Source of the DNA: Clostridia bacterium
Lineage (GTDB): Bacteria > Bacillota > Clostridia > Lutisporales > Lutisporaceae
NCBI GenBank assembly: GCA_035628995.1
Contig: DASPIR010000029.1
Span: 62,001-126,000, forward strand
Direction: 5' to 3'
Length of the DNA stretch: 64,000 nucleotides
This document shows positions 2,909 to 46,333 of the stretch, piece after piece. How positions within the stretch are numbered: position 1 is the stretch's first letter; each line of letters begins with the position of its first letter. The notes beneath the pieces were generated by a model, which worked only from the letters and a program-made list of their open reading frames with translations, was not told the DNA's origin and ran no database searches. The position numbers and the translations under genes were made by a program.

Positions 2909-2924
2909 AGATTATTTATTAATC

Positions 2925-3025
2925 ACAACCGCTTCCCTCCGTTAGAATTAACCAGACAGGTTCAAAGGGTCAGCACATCTGCATTTTAAGTGCACCGTGC
3001 TATCTCAGCATAAAGCCCCCCTAGC
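2925..3025 (-). promoter_or_regulatory. TPP riboswitch (THI element)
   Basis: On the minus strand the conserved THI-box parts appear in order: a 5' GGGGGCTTTATGCTGAGA segment, a variable arm, CCCTTTGAACCTG, then GGTTAAT and a GGAGGGAAGCGG 3' strand. These are the known core sequences of thiamine-pyrophosphate aptamers. With the terminator at 2880-2908 and thiT downstream it should switch thiamine uptake off when TPP is plentiful. Confidence 0.95.
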
Positions 3026-3084
3026 GGACAATTTCTATTAAGTTAATGTTGTATGTGAAAAGAGTTTTTCTTACATACAATATT

Positions 3085-12913: not shown

Positions 12914-12998
12914 TATCTTCGGCAGCCCGGCCGCCATAGCTTCCCTTAGGCCCGTAGCTTTGCGTCCCTGGTTTTCAACAGGTTTGCCTTTTCGGAGA
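12914..12998 (-). promoter_or_regulatory. Cyclic-di-GMP-I (GEMM-I) riboswitch
   Basis: On the minus strand the GEMM-I core is readable: AAAGGCAAACC, a P2 hairpin with GAAA tetraloop-like turn (TGTTGAAAACCAG), GGGACGCAAAGC, CTACGGGCCTAAGG, then a second hairpin ending in GGCCGGGCTGCCG. The 'GGCAAACC' and 'GACGCAAAGC' blocks are diagnostic of this class. It lies 69 nt upstream of the stalk-protein start. Confidence 0.92.
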
Positions 12999-14871: not shown

Positions 14872-14882
14872 AAATACCTCCT

Positions 14883-14984
14883 AGTGCTTATTAACATCAC
14901 AGCTTTCCAATCAATCAAAATGTTAATAATGCACATCCTTAATGTTGTGTCCTGCTGCTATATACGAATACTGCTACAGGACAC
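14883..14984 (-). ncRNA. Module A structured leader, copy 1 (SLH-GH18 gene)
   Basis: On the minus strand hairpin P1 (14947-14984) has arms GTGTCCTG/CAGGACAC. It is followed by ACATTAA and hairpin P4 (14883-14934) with arms GTGC-A-TTATTAACAT / ATGTTAATAAGCAC. P4 abuts the AGGAGG ribosome site. Both hairpins recur upstream of threonine aldolase with near-identical sequence and a compensatory T-A to C-G change in P1. Confidence 0.6.
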
Positions 14985-28185: not shown

Positions 28186-28402
28186 GTGCCCTGTAATAGA
28201 ATTCGTTCGTAGAAGCAGGGCACTACATTAATATTGAACGCACAATAGTATTCGCATTGGGTAAAGTGCGAATTCAATAACAGCTAAGGAAACATTTACG
28301 CGAAATTTGAATAAAGCATGTAATATGTATTTCGCGAAATGTATTGGAAGTGCATTATTAACATTTTGAATTGTTTGAAAATCTGTGATGTTAATAAGCA
28401 CT
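28186..28402 (+). ncRNA. Composite structured leader of threonine aldolase (modules A and B)
   Basis: Hairpin P1 (28186-28223; GTGCCCTG/CAGGGCAC), ACATTAA, module B (28231-28347), and hairpin P4 (28349-28402; AGTGC-A-TTATTAACAT / ATGTTAATAAGCACT). P1 and P4 match the leader at 14883-14984; module B matches 46217-46333. Module B itself has stems TTGAACGCAC/GTGCG-AA-TTCAA and CGCGAAA/TTTCGCG. The coding start is 48 nt downstream. Confidence 0.6.
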
Positions 28403-28449
28403 TATTATTGTATAATAGTAATGAATTAATAATAATGGAGGTTTTAGTG

Positions 28450-34107: not shown

Positions 34108-34149
34108 CAAAAATGCTGTACTAAGCACCTCCCTATCTCTCGTAGGTAA

Positions 34150-34335
34150 GCTTCAAACTCAGGCAGGTCTCCTGGCTTAGGTTCATCGTATTCCTACACC
34201 TTCCCAGAGCATTGGCTCCAGTGGACACATAGGATACTCACCGTTACAGTGGCGGGACCGCATGGGGTTTTCACCCATTTCCCATTTAAGCTGACCGGAG
34301 GAATTGCCTCCGGCTAAGCACCTGAACTATTTCGC
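34150..34335 (-). promoter_or_regulatory. Cobalamin (B12) riboswitch
   Basis: On the minus strand: 5' GGTGCTTAGCCGGAGGCAAT, GGGAAATGGGTGAAAACC, GCGGTCCCGCCACTGTAAC (B12-box-like core), GAGTATCC, AGCCAATGCTCTGGGAAGG and AAGCCAGGAGACCTGCCTGAG (the 3' B12 box). This matches the known cobalamin aptamer layout. It should repress btuFDC when B12 is abundant. Confidence 0.95.
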
Positions 34336-34384
34336 TATTTAATTCATATTGATTCTAACATAATGCTTCACACTTTACAACAGC

Positions 34385-44741: not shown

Positions 44742-46124
44742 TCAGTTTTCCTTCACGCTTATATCAACTACAGTATTAAAAGTATTGGAAGTATAGTCAT
44801 AGTCTTCCAAAAACGTTTCTAAATCGATAGTTTCAACTAACTTCTCACCTTGTACCGAAAAAGCTTCCACATCCCAGCCGGTTTTCTCATGAATGCTGTA
44901 AGCAGCTTCCATACTGAGCACCTGCCTTCCGTCAATATTGTCGGTCTTGAAATACTCATCATCAAATTTTAAGAAAGTCGGCAGCTTCAAATCCACAACT
45001 CCATATCTGGAGTTTATATTTTTATGACCGCCCAAGGCTGCAGTGATATTATCCACATTCGCACTCCAGACGTTCTTCCTTTTAAGCTTCATTATCCCTT
45101 CATCAAATATCCTCAAATCAACAGAGTCTTCGGAATACTTATACCCAAGCTGTTTGATGCTGTCCACTGCTATGAGGTCTACTTTGTCGTAATCTCCATA
45201 GTTCATACCCGCAAAAACTCCATTAACCTTGATGATTTTCATATTTATATATGCATTGCCGCTGGACTTGTCATAGCTCATACTACCGCCAAACTTCTTT
45301 ACTGTTTGTGTAAGGTTGACATATATGGTTCCTTCCTGCTCCTTTATTTCAATATCAAATAGTCCTGCTATCTCTGAAGTCACTCCCAACACATCTTCCG
45401 CTGCCTTATAGTTCACATATATTGTGCCTTGCTGTTCCAGAGCATCACAGGTTATCAAGCTGTTGTTCAAAAACACTCCAATACCCTGAGATATTGCAAT
45501 AGGCTTGCTATAAGGCTTTTTTAAAACCACCTGAGCTTTTTTCATTAATTCTTCAGGAATCTCCATCTGATTTAACTTCTCCATCACCAGCTTATCGCTT
45601 TTTGCACCTGCTTTATAACCATCCGGATAAAGAACCGCAACTTCCTTACCAGAATATTTATCATCAAATGCTTTTACCCTGTCATATTTAATTGTAACAG
45701 GCGTATTCACAGGCACCAAGGTATACACTTCCATTACATCCCTGTTATACATCCTGATGCAGCCGGCAGATGCATAGGTACCTATAGATTCAGGCTTGTT
45801 GTTGCCATGAATACCTATGCTTTTTGTAATCCCTATCCAGCTTACACCCAAAGGATTCAGAGGCCCCGGAGGCACTATATCCTCTTTGTTTATCCAGTAA
45901 GGGTTGACAGTCTTATATACCACCCAATAGTCCCCTTGAGGAGTAGGAGTAGATTGTTTCCCAACGCATACCGGGTATTCCTTCAGCAGAACGCCATCTT
46001 TATAAAGACTTAAGATACGAGAAGGCAGATTAATTTCTATGCTTGTTTTACCTGATGTACTGTCCGCCGACACCTGATTGAAACAAATAAGAATAATAAG
46101 TGCAACTAAAAAAGACCTTTTCAA
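44742..46124 (-). CDS. L,D-transpeptidase (YkuD) with stalk-type domain
   Basis: This 460-residue secreted protein has a signal peptide (MKRSFLVALIILICFNQVSA), a YkuD domain (about 25-150) with the active-site pattern SIGIHGN...TYASAGCIRM (Cys nucleophile), then copper-amine-oxidase-like stalk repeats. YkuD enzymes make 3-3 peptide cross-links in peptidoglycan. TTG 46124 is preferred because GGAGG lies 8 bp upstream; the TTG two codons earlier is too close. The long leader carries module B. Confidence 0.9.
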   Translation of the reverse strand: MKRSFLVALIILICFNQVSADSTSGKTSIEINLPSRILSLYKDGVLLKEYPVCVGKQSTPTPQGDYWVVYKTVNPYWINKEDIVPPGPLNPLGVSWIGITKSIGIHGNNKPESIGTYASAGCIRMYNRDVMEVYTLVPVNTPVTIKYDRVKAFDDKYSGKEVAVLYPDGYKAGAKSDKLVMEKLNQMEIPEELMKKAQVVLKKPYSKPIAISQGIGVFLNNSLITCDALEQQGTIYVNYKAAEDVLGVTSEIAGLFDIEIKEQEGTIYVNLTQTVKKFGGSMSYDKSSGNAYINMKIIKVNGVFAGMNYGDYDKVDLIAVDSIKQLGYKYSEDSVDLRIFDEGIMKLKRKNVWSANVDNITAALGGHKNINSRYGVVDLKLPTFLKFDDEYFKTDNIDGRQVLSMEAAYSIHEKTGWDVEAFSVQGEKLVETIDLETFLEDYDYTSNTFNTVVDISVKEN

Positions 46125-46177
46125 AGCCAATTCCTCCTTTTATGTAGCTACCTCATGGTGCAGAATGCTATACCACC

Positions 46178-46333
46178 AGTATTCAGATTATTGACAACCA
46201 ATAAAATACTTATTCACCTATATATTTCGCGAAAAACATTTCACATTACTATTCAAGTTTCGCGTAAATGTTTCCTTAATTTTCATTGAATTCGCACTAT
46301 ACTCCAACGTAATAACATAAGTGCGTTCAATAT
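46178..46333 (-). ncRNA. Module B structured leader, second copy, plus 3' hairpin
   Basis: 46217-46333 (minus) is 117 nt and aligns along its whole length with 28231-28347. It shares ATATTGAACGCAC, AGTGCGAATTCAAT, AAGGAAACATTTACGCGAAA and TTTCGCGAAAT blocks. A third hairpin (AAGTATT...AATACT, 46178-46212) follows, in the P4 position. The L,D-transpeptidase start is about 55 nt on. Confidence 0.6.

Follow-up and report, generated by a model that had tools for sequence, protein, structure and literature searches.

A structured leader before a threonine aldolase-type gene is very probably a small mobile element nested within another

The structured leader at positions 28186 to 28402 of the window (the whole stretch of 64,000 nucleotides analyzed here) is, with high probability, a tiny two-hairpin mobile DNA element nested in another such element. 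We are equally confident that both are small, non-autonomous elements similar to MITEs and REPINs; they probably belong to one superfamily, and in this genome they are found preferentially in the sense orientation, directly 5' of Shine-Dalgarno (SD)-like runs. Dispersal of the elements, their shared covarying structure, their presence or absence in relatives, their nesting and their positional bias were all observed directly. A sequence-only reading of this DNA had proposed either a new cis-regulatory RNA or the insertion of an RNA-forming mobile repeat into a different leader. Our data support the second proposal: module B is a mobile element in the linker of module A, and A is itself mobile.

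RESULTS

The leader precedes a threonine aldolase-type gene (Beta_elim_lyase, PF01212; 28447..29475, + strand), and the four-part organization previously described for it (P1, a two-stem module B, and P4) could be located in full. P1 is the left hairpin of the A element (28186..28223, +; arms 28186-28193 and 28216-28223) and covaries across A copies. It is followed by the left part of the A linker (TACATTAA; 28224..28231, +), which is interrupted by B and which in uninterrupted A copies reads ...ACATCAAGGAAGTGC... Module B (28232..28345, +; boundary ±1 nt) is a complete second element inside A, as the earlier reading had it; its junctions were compared with those of uninterrupted A copies. It consists of hairpin 1 (TATTGAACGCAC ... 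GTGCGAATTCAATA; 28232..28279, +), a linker of a type conserved across subfamilies (ACAGCTAAGGAAAC; 28280..28293, +), and hairpin 2 (ATTTACGCGAAAT ... ATTTCGCGAAATGTATT; 28294..28345, +), and it was matched by model R2 at 28232-28347 (121 bits, E 2e-18). The right part of A (28346..28402, +) comprises the linker GGA and the P4 hairpin (28349-28402; arms 28349-28364 and 28388-28402). The 223-nt leader strand is predicted to fold at -60.1 kcal/mol (z = -3.8), and 0/200 shuffles were as good. Near this leader lies a TATAAT at 28411-28416; a match to the -35 element is absent, and A[B] may or may not be part of the transcript of the gene.

Two further leaders in the window carry these modules, as the earlier reading had noted. 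An A element alone (14881..14984, - strand; R3 match G000:C29:76881-76984) lies before an SLH-GH18 gene (PF00704, PF00395; 13099..14871, -). This leader is P1 plus P4, with P4 at the ribosome site: its terminal AAGCACT joins the AGGAGG of the gene without a gap. P4 does not lie at the ribosome site of the threonine aldolase gene, whose GGAGG (28437-28441) is ∼35 nt 3' of P4. The third leader has a lone B copy (46217..46332, -; R2 match of 111 bits, E 1e-16; the 3' end includes 1-2 nt of host sequence) before an L,D-transpeptidase (YkuD) gene (44742..46130, -).

How widespread are the modules? In the genome that contains the window (G000; 3.65 Mb, 35 contigs), BLAST returned 42 matches for the full leader, 41 for B alone and 27 for the A leader, while covariance models gave 76 B-type and 42 A-type matches (the latter about 40, composite halves being counted). 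Rather than being confined to three leaders, A and B are thus genome-wide repeats, and like MITEs they are short, non-coding, dispersed and multi-copy. Each element of ∼100-150 bp is built from hairpin 1, a GGAA-containing linker and hairpin 2, followed by the end, and two hairpins are found in every type. In most subfamilies the termini lie near CTATA...TATAG, which may represent short terminal inverted repeats; a longer match between left and right ends within a subfamily is modest (permutation p 0.015).

The search of related genomes that had been suggested did yield covarying homologues. The compensated change in P1 noted earlier (GTGTCCTG/CAGGACAC versus GTGCCCTG/CAGGGCAC) is real, and additional compensated P1 arms occur in the same genome (TGCTCTG/CAGAGCA and GTGCCTCT/AGAGGCAC) and in an A-type copy found with R2 in a genome of another family (GTGCCCCG/CGGGGCAC). 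A second genus of the same family, g2 (G006, G015, G019 and G012), and congeners have elements of the same plan with other stems (TATAAATCGCAC, TATAGGTTGCA, TATAGAATACGCC, TATATGTCGTG). Among 83 distinct rows, 94.8% of cells were paired and double-sided changes occurred at 22/23 pairs; because the alignment was fitted to the structure this count is flattered, but the stem swaps are nonetheless visible by eye. The covariation score was 0.46 versus 0.19 in shuffles, and pairing fell to ∼33% when partner columns were slid by one. Model R2 was trained almost only on B-like copies, nearly without A copies, and still its matches to A copies were in register, with E values of 1e-4 to 0.1. This detection makes it probable that A and B represent two subfamilies within a single superfamily. 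Stem-swapped subfamilies were found in two genera of the family; beyond it, a class-wide sample of 291 genomes added only the other family just mentioned, represented by one genome (G271) with eight matches (E up to 0.01). Rfam had no relevant family for the leader, either at the gathering score or at a relaxed E-value, in agreement with the earlier statement that no known riboswitch class was recognized. What is new is the superfamily itself, with no entry in Rfam and with stems swapped under covariation, together with its SD-adjacent, sense and nested pattern of insertion. In two chimeras (L126 in the same genome, L175 in G005), a short hairpin 1 (GTGAAGC..GCTTCAC) is combined with a B hairpin 2, showing that hairpins have been exchanged between subfamilies.

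Comparison with relatives revealed sites with and without elements. In G002 and G004, an element occupies an intergenic region whose counterpart here is uninterrupted and element-free, and the A element found here before yabQ is missing from G005, where the immediate flanks align poorly. G005 also carries near-identical 150-bp copies at different sites (L220 and L224). No TSD of more than 2 bp was detected, and none was present at the junctions of nested copies. In one orthologous intergenic region, genomes of different genera hold different elements, a B element at L056 (G000) and a C element at L144 (G006), which suggests insertion hot spots. One A copy (L018; G000:C21:3988-4089) occupies the loop of what resembles a terminator hairpin (GCTGCTAACC ... 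GGTTAGCAGC TTTTTT).

Three loci, one of them in the window, carry a B element nested in A, each time between ...TCAA/TTAA and GGA (junction TCAA^GGAAG). In a tree of B copies, the three nested copies fall in separate places and the starred branches force three changes; a single ancestral B-in-A composite is rejected by this tree, which is built from few columns. By these sequence comparisons, B appears to have inserted into A on three separate occasions, always at the same nucleotide. Nesting was also found in genus g2. Several composites of ∼217 bp in G006 have a type F two-hairpin element between hairpin 1 and hairpin 2, while in G015 a type F element lies inside the hairpin 1 loop and a further site holds a tandem pair of elements. 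Type F elements (AAAAGGCTTC...GAAGCCTTTT, then GGAACAT...ATGTTCC) are nested in type C elements at L179-L185 and L193 in G006 and at L190 in G015. Since these composites recur at different sites, they probably move as a unit. Sites that differ in occupancy between relatives, copies that are nested or in tandem, and near-identical copies at different sites together show mobility of the MITE/REPIN kind rather than a ligand riboswitch.

We then asked where the copies sit relative to genes, with gene starts taken from a simple ORF caller. Between genes on the same strand, 48 copies were sense and 16 antisense (binomial p 4e-5), and 25 copies lay at divergent sites versus 4 at convergent sites (binomial p 5e-5). 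Random orientation, which the sequence-only reading had counted against itself, was therefore not what we found; the orientation is biased toward sense, although not absolutely. An SD followed by an ORF abutted the 3' side in sense at 29/67 B copies, compared with 5/67 in antisense at the 5' side; the corresponding numbers for A were 8/21 and 1/21 on the opposite side. Relative to the element end, the SDs of B copies mostly begin between -3 and +5 nt. In genus g2, this adjacency was weak (4/28 versus 2/28). As read from the flanks, copies that have no SD mostly have no GG after the element either, and a strict GG target is therefore not a general rule. In a sample of 31 copies between same-strand genes, chosen to include antisense copies, 14 opposed both the genes and the leading strand as judged by GC skew; these opposing copies rule out the replication strand as the cause of orientation.

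Two sources could produce this placement bias, the insertion machinery and selection. Nesting favors the machinery, because three insertions fell at one nucleotide of the AAGGAAG linker, a sequence that is SD-like and starts no gene. Our best guess is that the inserting enzyme chooses such targets, although selection may also contribute.

The genes behind the elements are functionally unrelated and point to no single pathway. They include aspS, rplM, pth, rnr, glmU, xseA, NAD kinase, response regulators, permeases and other transporters, SLH-GH18 and L,D-transpeptidase (some names are based on N-terminal sequence only), and the proposed link to cell-envelope genes was not borne out. Occlusion of the SD by the hairpins was considered as well; predicted SD accessibility did not clearly change (0.49 with the element versus 0.44 without it). 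An element lies between prs and pth in G005 as well as here, and some changes in its hairpin 2 are compensated. The prs-pth element may be an old insertion retained for function, or the two may be separate insertions at one attractive site, given that L157 is no nearer to L064 than it is to two further B copies. A local function of the element is possible.

Which enzyme moves the elements? The genome of the window has two Y1 transposase genes, both flanked by unrelated repeats; they were rejected as the mover since their ends are other than those of A and B. No transposase with matching ends was found among these two genes, and no RAYT (Y1) gene flanked by an A or B repeat was found in this genome. 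A search for end pairs in G006 and G015 returned the ∼217 bp composites and no larger element or full-length parent with the same ends, and viral contigs had no B or C hairpins. The two Y1 genes, L065 (G000:C8:73673-74005) and L066 (G000:C30:165915-166199), have their own flanking palindromes (of the GGGACAGGTACC type and the GGGGCGAACATTGTTCGCCC type, respectively) and look like separate REP/RAYT systems.

DISCUSSION

In the mechanism that we propose, an enzyme acting in trans would move the elements via both hairpins, perhaps with single-stranded DNA as its substrate, along the lines of IS200/IS605 and REPIN models. Insertion would leave no detectable TSD and would occur preferentially in sense, directly 5' of an SD-like purine run (GG or GGA), so that the inserted element would become the final structured part of the 5' leader. 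The AAGGAAG of the A linker would itself serve as a landing site, one that B appears to have used on three separate occasions, and the positional bias would reflect target choice as well as selection. Whatever the elements may do to mRNA stability or translation would be incidental. A single-strand mechanism for A and B is an analogy to REPIN and IS200 models (PMC3116915), drawn from the hairpin ends, the lack of a TSD and the modest left-right end match. More broadly, and at somewhat less than even confidence, we suggest a REPIN-like superfamily in Clostridia with several covarying stem subfamilies, whose machinery may home to SD-like sites in sense, install a two-hairpin leader before ribosome sites, and reuse the GGAA linker of relatives for landing.

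Could the leader instead belong to a riboswitch-like class, a ligand- or protein-sensing cis-regulatory RNA that controls a regulon? Strong structural covariation, the sense bias before genes and the prs-pth site shared with compensated changes all speak for such an RNA. However, more than 100 near-repeat copies lie at unrelated genes, orthologous sites occur with or without the element and some are nearly empty, some copies are antisense, hairpins are shuffled between subfamilies, Rfam has no such class, and predicted SD accessibility is about equal with and without the element. We consider this explanation very improbable.

The two remaining alternatives concern how mobile elements came to be placed and moved. 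Insertion may be untargeted, with selection alone keeping the sense, SD-adjacent copies, for example because they stabilize the mRNA or insulate the ribosome site. This would account for the sense and SD bias, for the copies found elsewhere or in antisense, and for the common site at which hairpin 2 was retained, and we regard it as a serious possibility that we nevertheless lean against: three B-in-A insertions share one nucleotide, in a linker where no gene starts, and SD distances, rather than being spread over the leader, cluster between -3 and +5 nt. An IS200/IS605 or RAYT system (Y1, HUH) that moves REPIN-like doublets as single-stranded DNA would fit the terminal hairpins, the orientation-specific insertion without a TSD, and the modest agreement between the left and right ends of a subfamily. 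The genome has only two Y1 genes, though, with other repeats around both, no GTAG-type tag was seen, and orientation does not track the replication strand; a system of this kind is plausible but somewhat doubtful. The nest of two MITE/REPIN-like elements remains our preferred reading of the leader.

Miniature elements derived from IS200/IS605 (PATE-like) have hairpin ends, no TSD and an oriented insertion beside a short target. A and B share with them the hairpin ends, the lack of a TSD and the oriented insertion, but no related transposase was found here and insertion is not linked to the replication strand. With REPINs, or REP doublets, and their RAYTs, for which an alternative two-hairpin fold was proposed as the mobile form (PMC3116915), the elements have in common that they are non-autonomous extragenic hairpin doublets of ∼100 bp that form subfamilies. 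They differ in that no RAYT lies beside the copies, the end tags are not the same, the linker is conserved where REPINs have a variable spacer, placement is biased toward sense next to an SD, and nesting occurs at one nucleotide. Compared by description, the pneumococcal BOX, RUP and SPRITE repeats are likewise modular, structured, small and intergenic; they are transcribed and thought to be MITEs, and composites can alter expression (PMC3049150). The modularity of BOX comes from tandem boxB units (PMC3049150), whereas here a complete element lies inside another and stems are swapped with covariation. Prokaryotic MITEs such as ERIC, Correia and Nezha are also short, AT-rich, base-paired and non-autonomous with short inverted ends (PMC10969869), but for A and B neither a TSD nor a parent IS was found. 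Ribosome sites or Shine-Dalgarno targets are unmentioned in that review (PMC10969869), and a search of the open-access literature for SD-targeting repeats gave no match.

If the bias reflects target choice, these would be mobile elements that land just before translation start signals, sparing the gene while it gains a new structured leader. This would offer parasitic DNA a simple route to seed cis-regulatory RNAs genome-wide. It also calls for caution, in that structured, covarying leaders that recur before genes of unrelated function can be mobile repeats rather than riboswitches. Riboswitches of known classes identified in the window with Rfam are cobalamin (34145-34340, -), c-di-GMP-I-GGC (12917-12997, -) and TPP (2917-3032, -).
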